From Bacteroidota bacterium (GTDB taxonomy: Bacteria > Bacteroidota > Bacteroidia > Chitinophagales > Chitinophagaceae), in contig SYIK01000006.1 of NCBI GenBank assembly GCA_005798905.1, positions 62,001 to 126,000 on the forward strand: a DNA stretch of 64,000 nucleotides. Reading direction: 5' to 3'. The notes below the pieces were generated by a model. The model was not told the DNA's origin. It saw nothing but the letters and a program-made list of their open reading frames with translations, and did not search any database. Of the stretch, positions 3,331 through 59,475 are shown one piece after another (positions within the stretch are counted from its first letter, which is position 1; each line of letters opens with the position of its first letter). A program made the position numbers and the translations under genes.

Positions 3331-3404
3331 TTTATGAAAAATTTAAGAATTAAAAAGTTTGCAGGGAATATTGCGCAGAAAGAGTGCCGAAAGTTAATTA
3401 CTCC

Positions 3405-3480
3405 TTCCCTGCGCAGGCATTACCCTGATCAGGTTATACGGGTTTTTCTCAGTCCCAAAAAATAGGAACACCCCGGGAAC
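3405..3480 (-). promoter_or_regulatory. TPP (THI-box) riboswitch
   Basis: Read on the minus strand the segment carries the THI-box landmarks in order: GGGGTG, then CTGAGA, then ACCCGTATAACCTGATCAGG, then GTAATGCCTGCGCAGGGAA. P1 can form between TTCCC (3479-3475) and GGGAA (3409-3405). It lies about 75 nt upstream of the TonB receptor start, which implies feedback control by thiamine pyrophosphate. Downstream, 3368-3361 (TTCCCTGC) is complementary to the 3' side of the aptamer and is a candidate switching strand. Confidence 0.96.
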
Positions 3481-3554
3481 GCTGAATAGCAAAACGAAAG
3501 TAAGAATTATCCATTTAATAATATTACCTTTCCCATTCAAACAAAATTTATTTT

Positions 3555-23466: not shown

Positions 23467-24363
23467 ATGAAACCAAGTTTGATTATTCTGGCGGCAGGGA
23501 TGGCTTCTCGTTACGGTAGTATGAAGCAGATGGAAGGATTTGGCCCTTCGGGCGAAACAATTATGGAATACTCGATTTATGATGCAATCCGTGCGGGGTT
23601 TGGTAAAATTGTTTTCATCATTCGAAAAAAATTTGAAAATAGTTTTAGAGAATTAATCGAAGCAAAAATTGGAAATAGCATTTCGGTGGAATATGTTTTT
23701 CAAGAAATCGAAATGCAGACAGATGGGTTTGAAATTCCAAAAGATCGAACTAAACCTTGGGGAACAGCCCACGCAGTTCTTTGCGCAGCGGATAAAATTA
23801 ATGAACCATTTGCTGTAATTAATGCAGATGATTTTTACGGAAGCGATAGTTTTAAAAAAGCATCCAATTTTTTGATGAATCAATGTAATGAGAAAATATA
23901 TGGATTGGTTGGGTACGAACTTTTGAAAACGCTTTCCGCAAATGGTACTGTTAATAGAGGTATTTGTACGGTGGATGAAAAAAGTCAACTTGCATCAATT
24001 TCTGAACGGATTAATATTTCGCTTGTGGATGGTAAAATAAAAAGCGATGATGGTCAATTGCCGAATGAGTTTCTATTTTCAACACAAGTGTCAATGAATT
24101 TTTGGTGTTTTTCTCCTTCCATTTTTACTATTACAAAAAAATTGTTTCAAAAATTTCTAACAGAAAATATAGAGAACCCGAAAGCTGAGTTTTACATTCC
24201 TGCTGTAGCAGATTTTTTTATTAAAGAAAATGGGGGAGTTATTAAAATAATTCAAACATCAGCACAATGGTTTGGTGTAACATATAAAGAAGATGCTCCA
24301 TTTGTAAAAGAAAAATTAATGAAACTGATTGAGAAAGATGAATATCCTGTAAATCTTTGGTAA
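23467..24363 (+). CDS. nucleotidyltransferase family protein (GT-A sugar-phosphate type)
   Basis: 298 aa Rossmann-like NTP transferase. Starts SLIILAAGMASRYGSMKQME, the G-rich nucleotide-binding loop, with AVINADDFYG as the metal-binding Asp pair and KTLSANGTVNRGICTVD as a substrate loop. Sugar substrate (glucose-, mannose- or other 1-phosphate) is not evident. Typical of a Bacteroidota group that is often encoded near sugar kinases, none of which is here. Followed by the attenuator region. Confidence 0.87.
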   Translation: MKPSLIILAAGMASRYGSMKQMEGFGPSGETIMEYSIYDAIRAGFGKIVFIIRKKFENSFRELIEAKIGNSISVEYVFQEIEMQTDGFEIPKDRTKPWGTAHAVLCAADKINEPFAVINADDFYGSDSFKKASNFLMNQCNEKIYGLVGYELLKTLSANGTVNRGICTVDEKSQLASISERINISLVDGKIKSDDGQLPNEFLFSTQVSMNFWCFSPSIFTITKKLFQKFLTENIENPKAEFYIPAVADFFIKENGGVIKIIQTSAQWFGVTYKEDAPFVKEKLMKLIEKDEYPVNLW

Positions 24364-24428
24364 ATCATTAAAATCTTCTGATTATAAACAAATAATTGGT
24401 AGTTTTTCTTTTGTTTTTGATAAAAGAT

Positions 24429-24458
24429 TTGTTAGTTGATAATAGTTCCCTATTTTTG
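24429..24458 (+). promoter_or_regulatory. promoter of aromatic amino acid operon
   Basis: TTG (24429-24431), 19-nt spacer, TATTTTTG (24451-24458): fits the Bacteroidota -33/-7 consensus in both sequence and spacing. The leader ORF starts 8 nt beyond the -7 element, so transcription is expected to start at or just before its ATG. Confidence 0.83.
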
Positions 24459-24465
24459 AAATCAC

Positions 24466-24555
24466 ATGACAACCAAAAAAGTATATTATTGTTTCTGTTT
24501 TTATTACTTCTTTTTTAATAAGAAGCCGGGAATGCTTTTGTTGGTCAATAATTAA
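24466..24555 (+). CDS. Phe/Tyr-rich leader peptide (attenuator)
   Basis: 29 codons. The core YYCFCFYYFFF (residues 7-17, bases 24484-24516) has 9 Phe or Tyr in 11 positions and no Trp; it is followed by Asn-Lys-Lys and a hydrophobic tail, then TAA at 24553. It sits between a consensus promoter and an intrinsic terminator upstream of pheA. The density of Phe and Tyr codons immediately before the genes that make Phe and Tyr is the signature of a ribosome-sensing leader peptide, as in pheL. The peptide itself probably has no other job. The sequence evidence is direct; control of translation and transcription is inferred. No Shine-Dalgarno is seen. Confidence 0.85.
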   Translation: MTTKKVYYCFCFYYFFFNKKPGMLLLVNN

Positions 24556-24587
24556 AACAACTTAAAATCAACATAAAAAATCCCGGT
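24525..24587 (+). promoter_or_regulatory. candidate antiterminator pairing
   Basis: GCCGGGA (24525-24531, inside the leader ORF just past the aromatic codons) can pair with TCCCGGT (24581-24587), the left arm of the terminator. The two structures exclude each other: a ribosome stalled on the aromatic codons would leave 24525-24531 free, one that reaches the stop codon would cover it. A small local AAGC/GCTT hairpin also encloses the segment. Confidence 0.68.
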
Positions 24588-24607
24588 CAGCAAAGGCCGG
24601 GATTTTT
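24576..24607 (+). terminator. leader terminator of the aromatic operon
   Basis: AAAAATCCCGG - TCAGCAAAGG - CCGGGATTTTT: 11-pair stem (6 of them G:C-rich) with 10-nt loop and T tract, 10 nt before the pheA ATG. Being upstream of the structural genes it is an attenuator rather than an operon end. Confidence 0.93.
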
Positions 24608-24617
24608 GTTTAAAAAC

Positions 24618-25448
24618 ATGGGTACAAAAATTTCGATACAAGGTTATGAAGGCAGCTTTCATCAGATGGCATCTCAACAGTTTTTTGGGAAAGATGTGGA
24701 AGTAATTTACTGTGCTACTTTTCGAGATGTGATAAAGATAGCTTCATGCAAAAAGGAAAGTGATGGTGGTGTAATGGCAATTGAAAACTCTATTGCGGGT
24801 AGTATTCTTGCTAATTACAATCTTCTTCAAAAATCAAAGCTGAAAATCATTGGAGAGGTTTATTTGCACATAAGGCAAAACCTACTTGTAAATATAGGTG
24901 TGAAGTTTGAAGATATCCGTGAAGTGCATTCTCATACAATGGCTTTGCAGCAGTGTCATGATTTTTTAGATAAATATAAATGGAAACTAGTTGAAACTGA
25001 AGATACAGCATTAAGTGCAAAACATGTTTACCAACATAAAAGCAAACATGTGGCTGTCATTGCTAGCAAACTGGCGGCAGATCTCTACAATTTGGATGTG
25101 ATTGCTCCTAATATTCATACATTGAAAAATAATTACACTCGGTTTCTTGTCTTACAAAGAGAAGAGATTGTGATGAAAGTAGAGGGTGCTAATAAAGCTT
25201 CTGTTAATTTTCATACCGACCATTCCAAAGGAAGTTTGGCAAAAGTTTTGACAAAAATTTCAGAAGAAGGGATCAACCTAAGCAAGTTGCAAAGTTTTCC
25301 AATCCCAGGTAGTGATTTTAAATATAGTTTTCATGCAGATATGGAATTTGATTCTATCGAACAATTTGATAAAATGATTGAACTTATCAGGCCGCTGACT
25401 GCAGCTTTAAAAATTTATGGAGTTTATAAAAGAGGATTATGGAAGTAG
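24618..25448 (+). CDS. pheA: prephenate dehydratase
   Basis: 276 aa. Prephenate dehydratase domain (to ~185) with IENSIAGSI and the catalytic Thr174 in NNYTRF, followed by a regulatory ACT domain (~195-270, GSLAKVLTKISEEGINLSKL). There is no chorismate mutase domain; that activity is fused to the DAHP synthase downstream. The ESRP motif of the Phe-binding ACT site is replaced by QSFP, as in other Bacteroidota-like forms, so allostery may differ. ATG at 24618 is preferred to the in-frame TTG inside the terminator. Overlaps the next gene by 10 nt. Confidence 0.96.
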   Translation: MGTKISIQGYEGSFHQMASQQFFGKDVEVIYCATFRDVIKIASCKKESDGGVMAIENSIAGSILANYNLLQKSKLKIIGEVYLHIRQNLLVNIGVKFEDIREVHSHTMALQQCHDFLDKYKWKLVETEDTALSAKHVYQHKSKHVAVIASKLAADLYNLDVIAPNIHTLKNNYTRFLVLQREEIVMKVEGANKASVNFHTDHSKGSLAKVLTKISEEGINLSKLQSFPIPGSDFKYSFHADMEFDSIEQFDKMIELIRPLTAALKIYGVYKRGLWK

Positions 25449-26590
25449 CAAAACGATTAATTGATATTGGAGAATATTATTTCTCCCAAAAGTTGAGAGA
25501 AATAGATAAGCTTAATAAAGCTGGCAAGAATATAATAAACCTTGGTATTGGAAGTCCAGATTTGCCGCCTCACCCCGACGTAATTAATACGTTGCGGGAA
25601 GAAAGTGTTAAACCAGATGTACATGGCTATCAATCTTACAAAGGTTCAATTGTGTTGCGAAAGGCAATGAGTGGTTGGTATAAGAAATGGTACAATGTTG
25701 AATTGAATCCTGATAATGAAATACTTCCGTTGATTGGAAGTAAAGAAGGTATTATGCATATATGCATGACTTATTTGAATGAAGGTGATCAGGTGTTGGT
25801 GCCGAATCTTGGGTATCCTACTTACAGAAGTGCAGTGAAAATGGCAGGTGGAATTTGCATTGATTATGATTTGAAAGAAGTGAACAATTACACACCTGAT
25901 TTTGTAGTATTGGAAGCTGTCGATCTTTCAAAAGTGAGATTGATGTTTGTAAATTATCCGCAAATGCCAACGGGTCAACCAGCTAATAAAAAATTGTTTG
26001 AACAGCTTGTTGCATTCGGAAAGAAAACAGGCATCCTCATCATTCATGATAACCCCTATAGTTTTATTCTGAACGAATATCCAATGAGTTTATTAAGTAT
26101 TGATGGTGCAAAAGATTGTGTATTGGAATTAAACTCGCTCAGCAAAAGTCAGAACATGGCTGGCTGGAGAGTGGGTATGTTGAGTGGTGCAAAAGAACGG
26201 ATTGAAGAAGTGCTTCGTTTCAAGAGTAATATGGATAGCGGAATGTATCTCCCATTGCAACTTGCAGCAGCAACAGCATTAAACCTTGGGAAAGAATGGT
26301 ACGATACCCTAAATAGTATTTATCGTGAACGCCGTAAAAAAGTATTTGAATTACTTGATTTACTGAACTGTGAATATTCAAAAGATCAAGTTGGAATGTT
26401 TGTTTGGGCAAAAATTCCGGCAAAGAGGAAAACGGGTTATGAGTTGAGTGATGAAATCTTATATAATAGCAATGTATTTATTACGCCGGGTGGAATTTTT
26501 GGAAATACTGGTGATGGACATATAAGAGTGAGTTTGTGTGCATCTATTGAACGATTTGAAGAAGCAATTAAGAGAATAAGTCAAAAATAA
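25439..26590 (+). CDS. class I/II pyridoxal-phosphate aminotransferase (aromatic/aspartate type)
   Basis: 383 aa fold-type I enzyme. PLP Lys lies in SLSKSQNMAGWRVG; INLGIGSPDLPPHP and HDNPYSFI are the other family marks, and the C-terminal FGNTGDGHIRVSLC carries the substrate Arg. Between pheA and tyrA it probably transaminates phenylpyruvate and 4-hydroxyphenylpyruvate or prephenate; specificity is inferred from position. Overlaps pheA by 10 nt and is followed by tyrA after 5 nt. Confidence 0.93.
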   Translation: MEVAKRLIDIGEYYFSQKLREIDKLNKAGKNIINLGIGSPDLPPHPDVINTLREESVKPDVHGYQSYKGSIVLRKAMSGWYKKWYNVELNPDNEILPLIGSKEGIMHICMTYLNEGDQVLVPNLGYPTYRSAVKMAGGICIDYDLKEVNNYTPDFVVLEAVDLSKVRLMFVNYPQMPTGQPANKKLFEQLVAFGKKTGILIIHDNPYSFILNEYPMSLLSIDGAKDCVLELNSLSKSQNMAGWRVGMLSGAKERIEEVLRFKSNMDSGMYLPLQLAAATALNLGKEWYDTLNSIYRERRKKVFELLDLLNCEYSKDQVGMFVWAKIPAKRKTGYELSDEILYNSNVFITPGGIFGNTGDGHIRVSLCASIERFEEAIKRISQK

Positions 26591-26595
26591 AAGTC

Positions 26596-27444
26596 ATGGA
26601 AAGAAAACGTATTGCAATTATTGGTGTGGGTTTAATTGGAGGATCTCTCGCTATTCGATTGCATGAGAAAAAAATTTCATCAAGATTGATTGGTGTTGAT
26701 GCCAATAAAAAACACGAAGCAATAGCTTTGGAACTTGAACTGATAGATGAGGTTTTACCATTGAACGAAGCGATTGCAAAAAGCGAAGTGGTGATACTTG
26801 CTTTCCCAGTTGATCTCATGGTTGGATTGTTACCTTCAATTCTTGATCAGGTTGATCGGCAAATCGTAATTGATTTGGGTTCTACAAAATCACAAATGAT
26901 AGAAGTAGTTGCAACCCATCCGAAACGTGGACGTTATGTGGCAACACATCCCATGTGGGGTACAGAATACAACGGTCCAGCTGCAGCTATACCTGGCGCT
27001 TTTGAAAATAAAGCTGTGTTTATTTGTAATGAAGATGAAAGTGACCTAGATGCACTAGAGTGGACAAAATATATGTATAAAAAAATAGGTATGCATTTAT
27101 TGAGTATGGTAGCAAAAGCACATGATTTGCACGCTGCGTATGTTAGCCATATTTCACATATCACATCATTTGCATTAGCAAACACGGTATTGAAAAAAGA
27201 GAAAGAAGATAATGCTATTTTCGAAATGGCCAGTGCGGGCTTTGAAAGTACGGTTCGTTTGGCAAAGAGTAATCCTGCAATGTGGGTTCCTATCCTTTTG
27301 CAGAATAAAGTAAATGTGTTGGATGTATTGAACGAACATATTGAACAATTGACAAAATTCAGGGACAGTATCAGAGATGATAAAGAAGTTGAATTGAAAA
27401 ATCTAATTGAACATGCAAATAAAATAAAACGCATCATTAAATGA
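26596..27444 (+). CDS. tyrA: prephenate/arogenate dehydrogenase
   Basis: 282 aa. NAD(P)-binding Rossmann motif GVGLIGGS (residues ~10-17), catalytic His in SHISHITSFALANTV, THPMWGTEYNGP for substrate binding. No ACT domain or chorismate mutase domain. Oxidises prephenate to 4-hydroxyphenylpyruvate. Overlaps the next (broken) gene by 4 nt, so cotranscribed. Confidence 0.96.
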   Translation: MERKRIAIIGVGLIGGSLAIRLHEKKISSRLIGVDANKKHEAIALELELIDEVLPLNEAIAKSEVVILAFPVDLMVGLLPSILDQVDRQIVIDLGSTKSQMIEVVATHPKRGRYVATHPMWGTEYNGPAAAIPGAFENKAVFICNEDESDLDALEWTKYMYKKIGMHLLSMVAKAHDLHAAYVSHISHITSFALANTVLKKEKEDNAIFEMASAGFESTVRLAKSNPAMWVPILLQNKVNVLDVLNEHIEQLTKFRDSIRDDKEVELKNLIEHANKIKRIIK

Positions 27445-27898
27445 TTTTTCGGGAAGCTACTATACAGGACATTTTGCAGATACAGATTGTTCGCAATGCT
27501 GTAAAAGAAAACATGTTGACGAGTCCGGACCTAGTACCTAATGTTGATGTGGAAGATTACATCACAAGAAGAGGCAAGGGGTGGGTTTGTGTAATAGACA
27601 ATATGGTAGTTGGTTTTTCAATTGTGAGTGTAATGGATCATAATATCTGGGCTTTGTTTGTTACTCCAAAGTATGAAGAAAAAAAATTGGCAAGCAATTA
27701 CACGATCTGATGATGAACTGGTATTTCAATCAAACAAATGAAACGGTTTGGTTGAGTTCAAGCCCGGGTACAAGAGCTGAAATATTTTATTGCAAACAGG
27801 GATGGAAAGAAATAGGTATGTATGGGAAAGGTGAGATAAAATTTGAAATGAAAAAAGAAGATTGGAAAAGGGCGATGATGCGAGTGATACAGCAGTAG
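27441..27898 (+). pseudogene. GNAT N-acetyltransferase, frameshifted
   Basis: The first 80 codons read a GNAT N-terminus (EATIQDILQIQIVRNAVKEN ... NIWALFVTPKYE), then the frame hits TGA at 27708. The rest of the domain (NWYFNQTNETVWLSSS, EIFYCKQGWKEIGMYGKGEI) continues in the -1 frame to 27898. The break lies at an eight-A run (27679-27686). Correct reading would give ...YEEKKIGKQLHDLMMNWYF. The acetyl-CoA loop is also degraded (EEKKIG; usual pattern Q/RxxGxG). Could be a real pseudogene, a sequencing error in the homopolymer, or a product of slippage. Position inside the aromatic operon suggests it was once part of it. Confidence 0.8.
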
Positions 27899-27953
27899 TC
27901 CAATAGCAGAACAATTGTTCGAAACATTAAACTTAACTTTACATTCAATAACA

Positions 27954-29051
27954 ATGCAAACAATTGAAGCAAAGATGAAAGAAAAAGTGCAGGAAGCATG
28001 GGGTAAGAAGCCTCTCCTCATTGCTGGGCCATGCAGCGCAGAAACCGAAGATCAATTAGTATCAACCGCACAGCGTTTAGCAGCAATAGGGGGAATAAAT
28101 ATGTTGCGTGCAGGTATTTGGAAGCCACGAACCAAGCCTGGTATGTTCGAAGGGATTGGAGCAAAAGGTTTACCATGGCTGCAAAAAGCAAAAGCATTAA
28201 CAGGCTTGCCAACGACTGTTGAAGTTGCAACGGGCAAGCAAGTGGAAGATGCATTGAACTTTGAAGTGGATGTATTGTGGATTGGCGCACGTACAACGGT
28301 GAATCCGTTTAGCGTACAGGAAGTGGCCGATGCATTACGAGGTGTTGATATTCCAGTGTTGATAAAAAATCCCATCAATCCTGATTTAGAACTGTGGAGT
28401 GGTGCAGTGGAGCGAGTGGCTCGTGCAGGCATCAAACAAATCGGGTTAATTCATCGTGGGTTTTCTTCTTACGGCAATACAGAATATCGCAATGCACCCA
28501 TGTGGCATTTGGCTATTGAAATGAAGCGTCGTAATCCTGATCAGATTATCATCAACGATCCTTCACATATTTGCGGTTGTAGAACTATTTTACAAGAGAC
28601 AGCACAGAAAGCAATCGATCTTGATTTTGATGGGCTAATGGTCGAAAGTCATATTGATCCTGACAAAGCATGGAGTGATGCGAAACAACAAATAACACCT
28701 GAGCGGTTAGCAGAAATGCTTGGTAATATTGTTTGGCGGAAAGAAGATGTGGCATCAGCAGAATATCACGCTGCATTAGAAAAATTGCGTCAACAAATTA
28801 ATCATCTTGATGATGAGATGATGCAGTTACTTGGACAACGTATGAAAATTGCGGAGAGTATTGGCCGGTATAAAAAAGATAATAGTATTACCATTTTGCA
28901 AACCAATCGCTGGAACGAAATTCTAGACCGAGCTTTTAAAGAAGGGGCACAAAAAGGGTTGAGCAAAGAATTTATTACCAAGTATTTTGATGCGGTGCAT
29001 ATGGAAAGCATTAATCGTCAAAATAACATTATGAATGTAAATGACGAATGA
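27954..29051 (+). CDS. 3-deoxy-7-phosphoheptulonate synthase / chorismate mutase fusion
   Basis: 365 aa. N-terminal DAHP synthase of the type I-beta (KDO8PS-like) kind: IAGPCSAETEDQLVS, RAGIWKPRTKPG, NDPSHICGCR and VESHIDPDKAWSDAKQQ (metal and substrate residues). C-terminal AroQ-type chorismate mutase (~270-355): LEKLRQQINHLDDEMMQLLG and RMKIAESIGRYKK. It provides both the first shikimate step and the branch-point mutase missing from PheA, as typical of Bacteroidota. GC is markedly higher than its neighbours. ATG 27954 preferred to a TTG upstream. Overlaps aroB by 4 nt (ATGA). Confidence 0.95.
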   Translation: MQTIEAKMKEKVQEAWGKKPLLIAGPCSAETEDQLVSTAQRLAAIGGINMLRAGIWKPRTKPGMFEGIGAKGLPWLQKAKALTGLPTTVEVATGKQVEDALNFEVDVLWIGARTTVNPFSVQEVADALRGVDIPVLIKNPINPDLELWSGAVERVARAGIKQIGLIHRGFSSYGNTEYRNAPMWHLAIEMKRRNPDQIIINDPSHICGCRTILQETAQKAIDLDFDGLMVESHIDPDKAWSDAKQQITPERLAEMLGNIVWRKEDVASAEYHAALEKLRQQINHLDDEMMQLLGQRMKIAESIGRYKKDNSITILQTNRWNEILDRAFKEGAQKGLSKEFITKYFDAVHMESINRQNNIMNVNDE

Positions 29052-30064
29052 AACAACAGTATAAGTTTTCAAGTGCAATTGTAGATTACTATTTTTCAGA
29101 AAGGGTTTCTTATTTGAAAAAAATAGTAGAGTATAAAAAAACAATTATCATTACTGATGAAAATATCTTTAAGTGCCATTCTAAAAAGTTTAAAAAATGG
29201 AAACTAATTGTACTCAAATCTGGTGAAGCATACAAAGTACAAACGACGGTCGATTCTATAATCAAAAAATTGATTGAAATGAATGCAGATCGAACAACTA
29301 CTTTAATTGGAGTTGGCGGTGGAGTGGTTACGGACATCACTGGATATACAGCTTCGGTGTATTTGCGCGGAATTGATTTTGGATTTGTTCCAACAACTTT
29401 ATTAGCGATGGTGGATGCATCTATTGGAGGGAAAAATGGGGTTGATGTGGATAATTGTAAAAACATGGTTGGAATAATTCGGCAACCAAAATTTATTTTG
29501 TATGATTTTAATTTTTTGAAAACACTTCCACAAGGTGAATGGAGAAATGGATTTGCGGAAATAATCAAACATGCTTGTATTAAAGATGCGATTTCATTTA
29601 GTATACTTGAAAAACAATCAATCAAGTTTTATCAAAAAAATAGGGGGGCACTAAGTGAACTTATAATCCGAAATGTACTTTTAAAAACAAAACTAGTGCA
29701 ACATGATGAATTTGAAAAAGGAGAAAGAATGTTGTTAAATTTTGGGCATACTATTGGTCATGCATTAGAAATGAAATATGAATTAAGCCATGGTCAAGCT
29801 GTTTCAATAGGTATGGCTTATGCATCGATGATTTCAGAAAAATTATTTGGATTTAAAGATGCAAAAAAAATAATTACTCTTCTTACAAAATACGAGTTGC
29901 CAACCTTTGCTGAATTTGACAATAATAAAATATTCGCAAATTTAAAAAAAGACAAAAAAAGAGTGCGCCAAGAAATTAATTATGTGTTTTTGAAGAAAAT
30001 AGGGATAGGAGTTGTGCAATTAATTTCGTTAAAAAAGTTAGAAAAATTAATTCAAACATTATAA
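29048..30064 (+). CDS. aroB: 3-dehydroquinate synthase
   Basis: 338 aa. NAD-binding GGGVVTDITGYTASVYLRGI, FVPTTLLAMVDASIGGKNGVD, and metal-binding His residues in NFGHTIGHALE and LSHGQAVSIGMAY. Second shikimate step. The gene shares ATGA with the preceding stop, so translation may be coupled. Local GC falls to roughly 22% in places. Confidence 0.97.
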   Translation: MKQQYKFSSAIVDYYFSERVSYLKKIVEYKKTIIITDENIFKCHSKKFKKWKLIVLKSGEAYKVQTTVDSIIKKLIEMNADRTTTLIGVGGGVVTDITGYTASVYLRGIDFGFVPTTLLAMVDASIGGKNGVDVDNCKNMVGIIRQPKFILYDFNFLKTLPQGEWRNGFAEIIKHACIKDAISFSILEKQSIKFYQKNRGALSELIIRNVLLKTKLVQHDEFEKGERMLLNFGHTIGHALEMKYELSHGQAVSIGMAYASMISEKLFGFKDAKKIITLLTKYELPTFAEFDNNKIFANLKKDKKRVRQEINYVFLKKIGIGVVQLISLKKLEKLIQTL

Positions 30065-30065
30065 T

Positions 30066-31346
30066 TTGAAAGTAACAATAAATCCTTCTTTATTAGCTGG
30101 GGTGTTGCAAGCTCCAGCATCTAAAAGTTCCATGCAACGAGCATGTGCAGCTGCTTTGTTGAATAAAGGGACAAGCGTTATTAAAAATTTTGGGAATAGT
30201 AATGATGAAAAAACTGCTTTGACAGTTGTTGAAAAACTAGGTGCCGAAATTGAAAAAGGAAATAAACGGATTGTTGTTAAATGCGATGGGGTTTCGGTAA
30301 AAACAAATGAAATTAATTGTGGGGAAAGTGGCTTGTTCACAAGAATGATTACACCAATAGCTGCATTAAGTAAAAAGAAAATTAGGATAACTGGAGAAGG
30401 AAGTTTACAATTTCGTCCCTTTCATTTTTTTGATACAGTTTTTCCTCAATTGGGAGTAAAAATAAAAACCAGTAACGGAAAACTCCCCTTATTTATTCAA
30501 GGTCCATTATCTCCAAAGAGTATTGAAATTGACGGATCTCTTAGTTCACAGTTTTTGACAGGATTGTTGATGGCATTTTCTGCAGCTGATGCAAAAAATG
30601 TAACTATATATGTTAGGAATTTAAAAAGTTTTCCCTACATCGATTTAACATTGAATGTGATGAAAAAATTTGGGATGAAAGTACCCAAAAACAATAATTA
30701 TGAAAGCTTTTATTTTTCTCCAAAATCATTTAATCAACAATACAAAACGTGCAACTATAAAATAGAACGTGATTGGAGTAATGCAGCTTTTTTGTTAGTT
30801 GCTGGTGCCATTGCAGGTTCGATAACAGTTAGAGGGTTAGATTTGAATTCAGCGCAATCGGATAAAGCAATTTTAATTGCATTGACAAAAGCAAATGCTA
30901 ACATTGAAGTTGAAAAGAATAGTATAAGAATAGGTATTTCCAAACTAAAGTCATTTGAATTTGATGCAACTAATTGTCCCGATTTATTCCCTCCTTTAGT
31001 AGCGTTAGCAGCATATTGTAAAGGGAATACAAGAATTAAAGGTGTGACAAGGTTGAAACATAAAGAATCAAATCGTGGTCTAACATTAAAACAGGAGTTT
31101 GGAAAAATGGGAGTAAAAATAGAATTGCTAAAAGATGAAATGGTAATTCATGGGGCTAAAAAAATTAAAGGGGCCGTCGTACATTCTCATAACGACCATC
31201 GAATTGCAATGGCTTGTGCAGTTGCAGCATTAAGAGCAACAAATAATACTGAAATTAACAAGGCACAAGCGGTGAATAAATCTTACCCTGATTTTTTTAG
31301 AGATTTAGAAAAACTTGGAGCTGTCGTATCTTTAAACAAAAGTTAA
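30066..31346 (+). CDS. aroA: 3-phosphoshikimate 1-carboxyvinyltransferase (EPSP synthase)
   Basis: 426 aa. Starts at TTG (30066), 1 nt after the aroB stop. Substrate-binding APASKSSMQRACAAALL near the N-terminus, CPDLFPPLVALAAYCKG with the catalytic Asp, LKHKESNRGLTL and SHNDHRIAMACAVAALRA are the family marks. Joins PEP to shikimate-3-phosphate. Class as to glyphosate tolerance not judged. Confidence 0.96.
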   Translation: MKVTINPSLLAGVLQAPASKSSMQRACAAALLNKGTSVIKNFGNSNDEKTALTVVEKLGAEIEKGNKRIVVKCDGVSVKTNEINCGESGLFTRMITPIAALSKKKIRITGEGSLQFRPFHFFDTVFPQLGVKIKTSNGKLPLFIQGPLSPKSIEIDGSLSSQFLTGLLMAFSAADAKNVTIYVRNLKSFPYIDLTLNVMKKFGMKVPKNNNYESFYFSPKSFNQQYKTCNYKIERDWSNAAFLLVAGAIAGSITVRGLDLNSAQSDKAILIALTKANANIEVEKNSIRIGISKLKSFEFDATNCPDLFPPLVALAAYCKGNTRIKGVTRLKHKESNRGLTLKQEFGKMGVKIELLKDEMVIHGAKKIKGAVVHSHNDHRIAMACAVAALRATNNTEINKAQAVNKSYPDFFRDLEKLGAVVSLNKS

Positions 31347-31350
31347 ATAG

Positions 31351-32370
31351 ATGAATAGTTTTGGAACCATATTTCGTATTTCTATTTTCGGAGAATCACA
31401 CGGCGAATCTGTCGGGATTGTAATTGACGGTTGCCCTGCAGGATTGCCATTAGTTGCAGAAGATTTTTTACCCGATCTTGAAAGAAGAAAAGGAGGTACT
31501 CAAAAAGGAACAACACCGCGCCAAGAAGATGACTATCCTATTTTTAAAAGTGGAATTTTTAAAAATAGAACAACAGGAGCTCCCATTACTATCTTATTTG
31601 AGAATAAAAATACGCGTAGTGAAGATTACGAAAAGAAAAAAAATATTCCACGACCCGGCCATGCAGATTTTGTTGCCAATAAAAAATTTGCTGGATTTGA
31701 AGATTATCGCGGAAGCGGACATTTTAGCGGAAGACTTACCGTAGCATTGGTTGCTGCTGGAGTTATTTCAAAAAAAATATTAAGTAAAATAAATATTTCT
31801 GCTAAAATTCTTGAAATAGGTGGAGAGCAGGATTTGGAAAAAGGGCTGCAAAAAGCAATAGCTGCAAAAGATTCTGTTGGAGGGATAATTGAATGTACCG
31901 CAAAAGATTTGCCAATTGGATTGGGTGAACCGTTTTTCAATTCTGTAGAATCGCAAATCAGCCAAATTGTGTTTTCAATTCCGGCAGTTCGTGCAATCGA
32001 ATTTGGAACAGGTTTTGCCGCGGCAAAAATGTTTGGAAGTGAACACAACGATGCAATTAGAAATACAGAAGGGAAAACTAAAACCAATCATGCAGGTGGT
32101 GTAGTAGGTGGGTTAACTAATGGAAATGATTTTGTTTTCAGAATTGCGGTTAAGCCAACTTCGTCTATAGCAAAAGAGCAAAAAACACTGAACAGGAAAA
32201 CTGGAAAGCAAGAAATTATTTCAGTAAAAGGTCGCCACGATTTGTGTATTGCTCTACGCGTTCCTGTAGTGTTAGAATCCGTTACAGCAATTGTTTTAGC
32301 AGATTTAATGCTTTTGGAACAACAGATTCCGCGGCGCCTATTTCAAGAAAAAAATAAGCTTTTGAAATGA
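31351..32370 (+). CDS. aroC: chorismate synthase
   Basis: 339 aa. FRISIFGESHGESVGIVIDG at the N-terminus, RPGHADF, RGSGHFSGRLT and the late KGRHDLCIALRVP are the FMN/substrate motifs. Last common step before the Phe/Tyr/Trp split, making the substrate for the mutase domain encoded upstream. It overlaps the RlpA-like gene by 4 nt. Confidence 0.97.
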   Translation: MNSFGTIFRISIFGESHGESVGIVIDGCPAGLPLVAEDFLPDLERRKGGTQKGTTPRQEDDYPIFKSGIFKNRTTGAPITILFENKNTRSEDYEKKKNIPRPGHADFVANKKFAGFEDYRGSGHFSGRLTVALVAAGVISKKILSKINISAKILEIGGEQDLEKGLQKAIAAKDSVGGIIECTAKDLPIGLGEPFFNSVESQISQIVFSIPAVRAIEFGTGFAAAKMFGSEHNDAIRNTEGKTKTNHAGGVVGGLTNGNDFVFRIAVKPTSSIAKEQKTLNRKTGKQEIISVKGRHDLCIALRVPVVLESVTAIVLADLMLLEQQIPRRLFQEKNKLLK

Positions 32371-32789
32371 ATGGGTTCTATTTTATAATATTTTTTTTTG
32401 TAGTTTTTTTCAACTTGCAAGTTGCCGCACAGGATAGTTTGCAAATAAAAGATAGTTTGTTAGTTGTTGAAAAAAAAGTAGATACACTCTTTGGAATTGC
32501 AAGTTATTATTCGGATAAATTTATTGGAAGAAAAACAGCAAACGGTGAAATTTTTAGTCAAGAGAAAATGACAGCTGCTTGTAATTTCGTTCCATTAGGG
32601 ACTTGGGTAAGTATTACAAATCTTAGAAATAATCGTGTTGTAGAGGTGAAAATAAATGATAGACTGCACCCAAAAAACAAACGAATTGTAGATCTTACTT
32701 TTTTAGCTGCAAAGCGATTAGGATTTATTAGAGCAGGACTAACTCCAGTTCAAGTTGAAATTTTGGGAAAAACCCCTAAAAAGAATTAG
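32367..32789 (+). CDS. RlpA-like septal ring lytic transglycosylase / DPBB protein
   Basis: 140 aa with an N-terminal signal peptide (FFVVFFNLQVAAQ) and a double-psi beta-barrel domain: GIASYYSDKFIGRKTANGE, NFVPLGTWVSITNLRN, VKINDR (barrel Asp). RlpA-type proteins cut or bind denuded glycan strands at the septum; there is no SPOR domain here. It starts within the last codons of aroC (ATGA) and may be read from the aromatic transcript. Confidence 0.9.
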   Translation: MNGFYFIIFFFVVFFNLQVAAQDSLQIKDSLLVVEKKVDTLFGIASYYSDKFIGRKTANGEIFSQEKMTAACNFVPLGTWVSITNLRNNRVVEVKINDRLHPKNKRIVDLTFLAAKRLGFIRAGLTPVQVEILGKTPKKN

Positions 32790-32852
32790 TATATTTTATT
32801 TCAGAATGTTACATTTAGCTATTATTTTTGTTAAACTACTAAATAAATTTTT

Positions 32853-33428
32853 ATGAAGAAATTATTACTACTCTTGATTGCAAGTACTACAATTAGTTTT
32901 TTTGCAAATAGCCAAGATAAAATTAGAGGTTGTGAAATCGGTATTAGTTTTAATCTATATGATTTTGTAACTGCCGATTTAATTCGCACAACTTCTTTAA
33001 GTGCTGTACTTCGTGACGAAAGCTGGGCTAAATTGGGGCAAATGACACCAGGAGTGTCTGTTCATCATTTTAAAGGGTTAACTAAAAATGTTGATTTTGC
33101 TGGAACATTTTCTGGGTCAATCATTAATTTTCCTTTACCCAACAAACCTAATACAGGTGTTACTAAGCTTTTATTAGCGGTTGATGCATCTGCTCAAATA
33201 AAGTTAGTAGGAGAAGATTATTGGTTTCAACCTTATATTTCTGTAGGTGCTGGCGCTCATAAATTAGGGTCATACTGGGGTGCTTTTGCTCCTGTTGGAC
33301 TAGGATTAAATCTTAATATTTTTAACGAGGCAAAATTTTTTATGAATTGTCAATACCGTATTCCTGTAACAAATGAGTCTGGGAATTATCATTATTTTCA
33401 TGCAATAGGGATTTCAACTAAATTATAA
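32853..33428 (+). CDS. secreted outer-membrane-type hypothetical protein
   Basis: 191 aa. Signal peptide LLLLLIASTTISFFANSQ. The mature sequence alternates like a small beta-barrel (FAGTFSGSIINFPLPN, YWFQPYISVGAGAHKLGSYW, KFFMNCQYRIPV), as in OmpA-like 8-stranded barrels of Bacteroidota. No binding domain. Ends just before a strong bidirectional terminator. Function unknown. Confidence 0.8.
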   Translation: MKKLLLLLIASTTISFFANSQDKIRGCEIGISFNLYDFVTADLIRTTSLSAVLRDESWAKLGQMTPGVSVHHFKGLTKNVDFAGTFSGSIINFPLPNKPNTGVTKLLLAVDASAQIKLVGEDYWFQPYISVGAGAHKLGSYWGAFAPVGLGLNLNIFNEAKFFMNCQYRIPVTNESGNYHYFHAIGISTKL

Positions 33429-59362: not shown

Positions 59363-59370
59363 TATATTTG
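59363..59370 (+). promoter_or_regulatory. -7 element of SRP RNA gene
   Basis: TATATTTG, a perfect TAnnTTTG match, 4 nt before the RNA's 5' stem. Confidence 0.68.
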
Positions 59371-59374
59371 CAGC

Positions 59375-59475
59375 GGCAGGTCTTACACGACCAGCTCCTA
59401 CTGAAACTCCCCAGGGCTGGAAGGCAGCAAGGATACGTGGTTGTAGCGGTGCGATGTAATTAGCCTGCCTTTTTT
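59375..59475 (+). ncRNA. ffs: small bacterial SRP RNA (4.5S type)
   Basis: GGCAGG (59375-59380) pairs with CCTGCC (59464-59469) as closing stem; the apical domain carries CCCCAGGGCTGGAAGGCAGC, including the GGAAG tetraloop receptor for Ffh and the AGCA internal-loop strand. About 95-100 nt, followed by a T tract that ends transcription. Part of the signal recognition particle for membrane protein targeting. Confidence 0.95.

Follow-up and report, generated by a model that had tools for sequence, protein, structure and literature searches.

Does the DNA between a predicted promoter and the pheA gene of a Chitinophagaceae bacterium let a translating ribosome decide whether the aromatic genes behind it are transcribed? 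The locus lies at positions 24429-24617 of a 64,000-nucleotide stretch of contig, which was analysed as a whole and is called the window below. As in attenuators, it combines a short ORF, in which codons for the products of the operon stand in a run, with mutually exclusive antiterminator and terminator stems. From the sequence and its comparison with relatives, we consider that 24429-24617 is very probably a transcription attenuator in which the ribosome senses the charging of tRNA-Phe and tRNA-Tyr.

The pheA leader and the genes behind it

An earlier sequence-only reading of this locus had described a promoter, a 29-codon ORF, the run YYCFCFYYFFF, a CCGGGA motif and a terminator, and each was found where it had been placed. 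The features used below are the following.

24429..24458, + strand: predicted primary sigma-factor promoter (TTG 24429-24431, N19, TATTTTTG 24451-24458)
24466..24555, + strand: leader peptide ORF, ATG at 24466, 29 codons and TAA (24553-24555)
24484..24516, + strand: putative sensing codons 7-17, YYCFCFYYFFF
24472..24484, + strand: segment 1, predicted partner of segment 2 (about 24532-24545) in the absence of a stalled ribosome
24525..24545, + strand: segment 2, predicted 5′ half of the antiterminator, GCCGGGA (24525-24531) and UGUUGGU (24539-24545)
24567..24588, + strand: segment 3, AUCAACA (24567-24573) and the left arm of the terminator (24576-24588)
24576..24612, + strand: intrinsic terminator, arms 24576-24588 and 24595-24607 (segment 4), loop 24589-24594, T-rich tail
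24618..25448, + strand: pheA, prephenate dehydratase (best matches are prephenate dehydratase models, below curated cut-offs)
25439..26590, + strand: PLP-dependent aminotransferase, AT (below curated cut-offs)
26596..27444, + strand: tyrA, prephenate dehydrogenase (NF006307, above cut-off)
27957..29051, + strand: aroF, DAHP synthase with a C-terminal chorismate mutase domain (below curated cut-offs)
29048..30064, + strand: aroB (TIGR01357, above cut-off)
30066..31346, + strand: aroA (TIGR01356, above cut-off)
31351..32370, + strand: aroC (TIGR00033, above cut-off)

The predicted transcription start is at about 24463, leaving a predicted 5′UTR of about 3 nt before an ORF that would encode MTTKKVYYCFCFYYFFFNKKPGMLLLVNN. 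This is the sole ORF of 10-50 amino acids with at least seven F/Y per 10 residues on either strand of the 64 kb. The leader folds better than its dinucleotide shuffles (z -3.96, 1 of 200 shuffles as good), as does the antiterminator stretch alone (z -3.34). The exact box TAnnTTTG occurs five times in 24300-32900, and the leader box alone has a TTG 18-21 nt upstream. A simple consensus terminator scan listed nothing in 24200-24900, and no Rfam family, T-box and riboswitch families included, reaches its own cut-off at the leader. Elsewhere in the window we noted a TPP riboswitch (3388-3485, - strand) and a Bacteroidales small SRP RNA (59367-59474, + strand).

CCGGGA lies at 24526-24531 and TCCCGG at 24581-24586. 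The pairing of 24525-24531 with 24581-24587 that had been proposed from these motifs holds: the two stretches are complementary, with one G-U. Two pairings absent from that account can be added. UGUUGGU (24539-24545) pairs with AUCAACA (24567-24573) and lengthens the antiterminator (-16.8 kcal/mol), and the start of the ORF (about 24472-24484) can pair with about 24532-24545, forming a 1:2 stem.

The genes of the supraoperon are contiguous, with overlaps or short gaps. A GNAT-acetyltransferase-like ORF, recognised by eye and broken into two frames of 89 and 62 amino acids, lies between tyrA and aroF (27441-27898). The order pheA-AT-tyrA-aroF-aroB-aroA-aroC on one strand was found in 50 of 62 relatives with more than 10 kb of sequence, order being counted and not adjacency. 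The tyrA-aroF interval holds no exact TAnnTTTG; its three sigma-70-type matches hardly exceed the 2.1 expected by chance, and an internal promoter at this place was rejected. Gene order and the absence of a convincing promoter match inside the operon thus agree with the earlier suggestion that the leader would control the whole supraoperon, and we infer co-transcription through to aroC.

Conservation of the leader and of its alternative stems

Relatives of pheA occur in 102 of 147 family genomes and in 5 of 6 genomes of the genus, the window's genome being counted in both, which gave a family set of 106 loci (102, and 4 from the genus). A leader was scored as an ATG-started ORF of less than 50 amino acids with at least six F/Y per 10 residues, at most 600 nt upstream of pheA. 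Such a Phe/Tyr-rich leader was present in 101 of the 106 upstream regions, and in 98 together with a terminator. Reverse complements gave 0/106, and five shuffle rounds gave 0-1 leaders and none with a terminator; these controls rule out a chance ORF or an ordinary upstream terminator. Reading of the sequences added two loci (L077, and L087 with a GTG start), bringing the total to 103/106, and left L093, L105 and L106 without a leader by both scan and reading. The aromatic leader is therefore kept in the alignment of Chitinophagaceae pheA upstream regions that the sequence-only reading had proposed as a check. With a looser scan, all 103 leaders have a hairpin and T-rich tail, located between +79 and +148 relative to the leader start, which itself lies 119 to 331 nt upstream of the pheA match. 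In a second set of loci, partly overlapping the first, 79 of 80 had a leader; culturable carriers include Niastella yeongjuensis DSM 17621 and Terrimonas ferruginea DSM 30193.

A covariance model (R1) was built from 93 of the family pheA leader loci. It matched in 97 of the 102 pheA-bearing family genomes, a result largely expected because the model was built from those loci, and in only 5 of the 45 that lack pheA. Two of these five matches precede tyrA (G073 and G079). The other three were taken as chance: in G049 the match contains an aromatic-rich 29-codon frame that overlaps the terminal part of a longer ORF (99 codons from stop to stop); in G116 it is the end of an 87-codon frame; and in G140 there is no aromatic leader. 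In the window's genome R1 has one strong match, the present site (1.6e-17), the next being at 0.023. Second matches in G078, G108, G076 and G142 showed no aromatic leader by eye, and that in G053 is an ilvD leader.

The survey was extended to the class, which we take to be the GTDB Bacteroidia, with a sample of 295 genomes. A pheA match was obtained in 78 of them, 73 outside the family, and 60 of those 73 loci were examined. A leader was present in 39/60 and a leader with terminator in 31/60 (reverse complements 1 and 0), while 21/60 missed the leader threshold; among these, inspection by eye showed weaker aromatic ORFs accompanied by hairpins in L107, L112, L114, L117 and L143. The pheA leader device is widespread in the class, yet not universal in this 60-locus sample. 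Tandem aromatic leader ORFs precede pheA at two family loci (L097, L101) and at three class loci (L108, L111, L144), where each ORF has its own predicted hairpin; these tandem loci are possible double attenuators.

The stems were examined in two ways. In a swap test, duplex energies of each leader's own segments were compared with those of segments swapped between leaders (102 leaders, 5000 permutations). Own segments paired better in 101/102 leaders for the 3:4 stem (z -22.6), in 98/102 for 2:3 (z -14.3) and in 95/102 for 1:2 (z -12.5), and in each case 0/5000 permutations reached the own value. The control combinations gave z +0.8 (1:3) and z -3.4 (2:4); as the 2:4 control is also negative, relatedness inflates the z values of this test.

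The other way used a fixed alignment of 93 leaders, in which five pairing measures were compared with 500 shuffles. For 3:4, 97.2% of cells are paired, 5 of 7 pairs are changed on both sides and 0/500 shuffles reach any of the five measures. For 2:3, 77.9% of cells are paired and 9 of 13 pairs are changed on both sides; three of the five measures lie beyond all shuffles, and the other two are reached by 50 and 31 of 500. For 1:2, 56.2% of cells are paired, a level that 75/500 shuffles reach, and cells changed on both sides are matched by 1/500; the position of these duplexes slides from leader to leader. The compensatory changes whose search had been proposed earlier are thus found in 3:4 and 2:3, and the 1:2 stem is weak on the fixed alignment. 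Altered yet complementary 2:3 stems are illustrated by L009 (GCCAGGATT/AATCCTGGC), L088 (GATCGGGT/ACCCGATC) and L099 (CTGAGGCTC/GAGCCTCAG). By script, 88 of 103 leaders contain an exact complement of their own of at least 6 nt; in a few of them the longest such match falls in A/T-rich sequence rather than in the segment 2 core.

Folding was computed with and without a ribosome. With a ribosome on the first or the middle aromatic codon and no segment 4, the fold of lowest energy is 2:3, both in the window and in six of six relatives. With no ribosome, or with one at the stop codon, the window folds into the terminator; folding without a ribosome gave the terminator in six of seven leaders, the minimum of L099 being the antiterminator. 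Once segment 4 is present, even a stalled ribosome leaves the terminator of the window lowest in energy, and the switch must therefore be kinetic. Many leaders have their stop codon downstream of the segment 2 core, where a terminating ribosome would leave this core unmasked, so that 1:2 would need to refold after release.

Control codons, promoter spacing and leaders of other operons

Phe accounts for 22.6% and Tyr for 13.7% of family leader residues, and both synonyms of each are used (TTT 431, TTC 173, TAT 180, TAC 186). The aromatic run is constant as amino acids while its codons vary. The CCGGG of segment 2 is in frame 0 in 46, in frame 2 in 19 and in frame 1 in 7 of the 103 leaders, and is missing in its exact form from the stretch scanned in 31. 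Since the same motif is read in three frames, the 3′ half of the leader is constrained as RNA.

To compare codon content with gene content, we turned to family leaders that precede tyrA without pheA, of which there are four. The G073 leader, directly upstream of tyrA, is MTQYSKYYYWYYLNRITG, with six Y and no F; that of G079, upstream of AT-tyrA, is MTITKTYTRVYSYFFYYALKRGML, with five Y and two F. In G021 a second leader precedes the separate tyrA, and G054 has one before AT-tyrA, its pheA lying on another contig without a leader. In ascending order the Tyr shares of Y+F in the four are 0.50, 0.62, 0.71 and 1.00, whereas the 103 pheA leaders average 0.38 (Mann-Whitney, one-sided p 0.0009, on four family cases of which three were known before the test was framed). 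With two class-level cases added, six against 142, p is 8e-5. A Tyr share of at least 0.5 is likewise seen in 18/103 pheA leaders. Twenty further tyrA regions unlinked to pheA were hand-picked, G012 and partial matches being left out. Leaders with terminators were recognised by eye in three (L332, L346 and L348), and a convincing leader is lacking in 17: fourteen regions have none, two of them (L334 and L342) with less than 900 nt upstream, and in L336, L343 and L344 Phe-richer ORFs lie 667 to 1522 nt upstream and were taken as unrelated. Control codons would thus tend to follow the pathway product, with a shift towards Tyr before tyrA without pheA in a few cases.

The position of the promoter is also conserved. 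An exact TAnnTTTG ends 4-10 nt upstream of the leader start in 75 of the 103 family leaders, most commonly at 7 nt (33), and 28 have no exact box within 10 nt; in the same regions, an exact box lies at 4-10 nt before 0/966 other ATGs. Among the promoters of 81 relatives, TTG precedes the box by 19 nt in 34 cases and by 20 nt in 20. According to the accessible text of a study of Flavobacterium psychrophilum, the TAnnTTTG box sits at -12 to -5 (PMC9723704). Together with the 4-10 nt spacing, this predicts a 5′UTR of 0-6 nt in family leaders. Outside the family, an exact box at 4-10 nt was found in only 2 of 39 pheA leaders. The leader mRNA had been proposed earlier to be leaderless: promoter spacing, which is the evidence here, fits a leaderless or near-leaderless transcript. 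Leaderless mRNAs are given as just 5.5% in F. psychrophilum, a species without Shine-Dalgarno sequences, in the same accessible text (PMC9723704).

Leaders of other amino acid operons in the family were sought at hisG, trpE and ilvD by scans run without a shuffle control. His-run ORFs were found upstream of hisG at 27/30 family loci and Trp-run ORFs of WWWH type upstream of trpE at 29/29, two of the latter (L206 and L223) being doubtful by position or pattern (the hisG and trpE loci span L167-L225). An exact box lies at 4-10 nt in 19/27 hisG leaders and 6/29 trpE leaders; with one mismatch allowed, 21/29 trpE leaders have it, against 56/966 background ATGs. Ile/Leu/Val-rich ORFs occur upstream of ilvD in 19/29, nine of them 1.1-1.4 kb upstream; at least that of L240 looks like chance, and the box is at 4-10 nt in 0/19. 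No Rfam match to the hisG or trpE leaders was obtained in ten loci scanned.

The near-leaderless design is thus predicted on hisG too and, less clearly, on trpE. On balance, we favour the view that the Phe/Tyr, His and probably Trp attenuators of Chitinophagaceae share a leaderless or near-leaderless design, in which a promoter locked 4-10 nt before the AUG would, in a phylum devoid of Shine-Dalgarno signals, have the ribosome load on the 5′ end and couple at once, whereas relatives outside the family would keep the pheA attenuator with ordinary 5′UTRs.

In the window's own genome (G000, 1.86 Mb), HisG, the TrpE N-terminal domain and homoserine dehydrogenase were not detected, and the Phe/Tyr operon and ilvD are present; its ilvD (L254) has no Ile/Leu/Val leader. 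The organism is likely a multiple auxotroph.

The proposed switch, competing explanations and known systems

For the pheA leader we infer the following course of events. The transcript would have a 5′UTR of 0-6 nt, and of about 3 nt in the window, so that a ribosome could load as the 5′ end emerges. With ample Phe and Tyr, this ribosome would translate through and leave; segment 1 would pair with 2 and segment 3 with 4, and the 3:4 terminator would stop the polymerase upstream of pheA. When Phe or Tyr is scarce, the ribosome would stall in codons 7-17 and cover segment 1, so that segment 2 could form its stem with segment 3 before segment 4 is synthesized. The terminator would then fail and pheA-AT-tyrA-aroF-aroB-aroA-aroC would be transcribed. 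Ribosome-mediated Phe/Tyr attenuation, as first proposed for this locus, is backed by the 103/106 leaders, the covarying stems and, in few cases, the Tyr shift at tyrA.

Strong conserved alternative stems would also be expected if a riboswitch, a T-box or a protein-controlled terminator were at work and the ORF were incidental, and translation of the leader is itself a prediction. Such a device would not account for an aromatic run kept as amino acids while codons vary, for Phe/Tyr use that shifts with gene content, or for a start codon placed just behind the promoter in 75/103; no Rfam family reaches its cut-off at the locus, and His, Trp and Ile/Val runs precede hisG, trpE and ilvD in the same family (in scans without shuffle control). 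We consider it very unlikely. Control of translation, with the hairpin hiding the start of pheA, seems about equally improbable: in the window the pheA ATG (24618) is indeed only some 10 nt past the right arm of the hairpin (24607), but a T-rich tail follows the stem, and among relatives the leader start is 119 to 331 nt away from the pheA match, while its distance to the hairpin varies only from +79 to +148. Less probable still is that the strongly conserved ORF encodes a functional small peptide with its own terminator, as its C-terminal half is the same RNA motif in three frames and stop positions differ among relatives.

The attenuator reading can be compared with known systems. PheL (Phe_leader) resembles the present leader in being a leader before pheA with alternative stems. 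At the locus, the Rfam model Phe_leader RF01859 reaches 23.9 bits (E 0.061), the second-highest bit score among the sub-threshold Rfam matches there and far below its gathering score of 55. The present leader differs from pheL and RF01859 in its mixed Phe/Tyr run and in a gene set with tyrA and aro genes. No Chitinophagaceae pheA attenuator was found in the open-licence PMC literature; a work on attenuation in bacteria, Lopatovskaya et al. 2010, may cover Bacteroidota. The Bacteroid-trp RNA (RF01692), which we presume from its name to be linked to trp genes, has no match in the window or in six Chitinophagaceae trpE loci scanned. It is described, in the accessible part of the source, as a candidate cis-regulatory RNA of Bacteroidetes (PMC2864571), and leader-peptide-like short ORFs are likewise mentioned in Bacteroides thetaiotaomicron (PMC7366714, accessible part).

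The sequence-only reading had held such a leader to be no textbook example for Bacteroidota. This novelty is weakened by F. psychrophilum, for which the accessible text gives strong indications that leader peptides attenuate amino-acid operons and describes, at pheA, a structured 5′ element kept in other genera of Flavobacteriaceae and without Rfam hits (PMC9723704). That element resembles the present leader in gene and phylum, and in its accessible text the source gives no leader peptide, segments or covariation for pheA (PMC9723704). The present leader differs in belonging to another family, in its four segments, in the shift of codons with gene content and in near-leaderless spacing. In Sinorhizobium meliloti, the accessible text describes a trpL attenuator whose leaderless transcript starts at the leader-ORF AUG (PMC7298713); this is a trp operon in an alphaproteobacterium, whereas the design is predicted here for Chitinophagaceae pheA, hisG and, less clearly, trpE. 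What is added beyond the known mechanism, already suspected for Flavobacterium pheA (PMC9723704), is the four-segment switch, its breadth, the codon shift and the near-leaderless design.

The pheA leader thus offers a concrete, testable regulator, not listed by Rfam, for the aromatic supraoperon of a large and little-studied group, in which, as natural gene loss shows, the choice of control codons tends to track what the pathway makes. If the near-leaderless design is true, it can be compared between families, relatives outside Chitinophagaceae having ordinary 5′UTRs, and these very short-leadered transcripts would provide material for the study of translation-transcription coupling in bacteria without Shine-Dalgarno signals.
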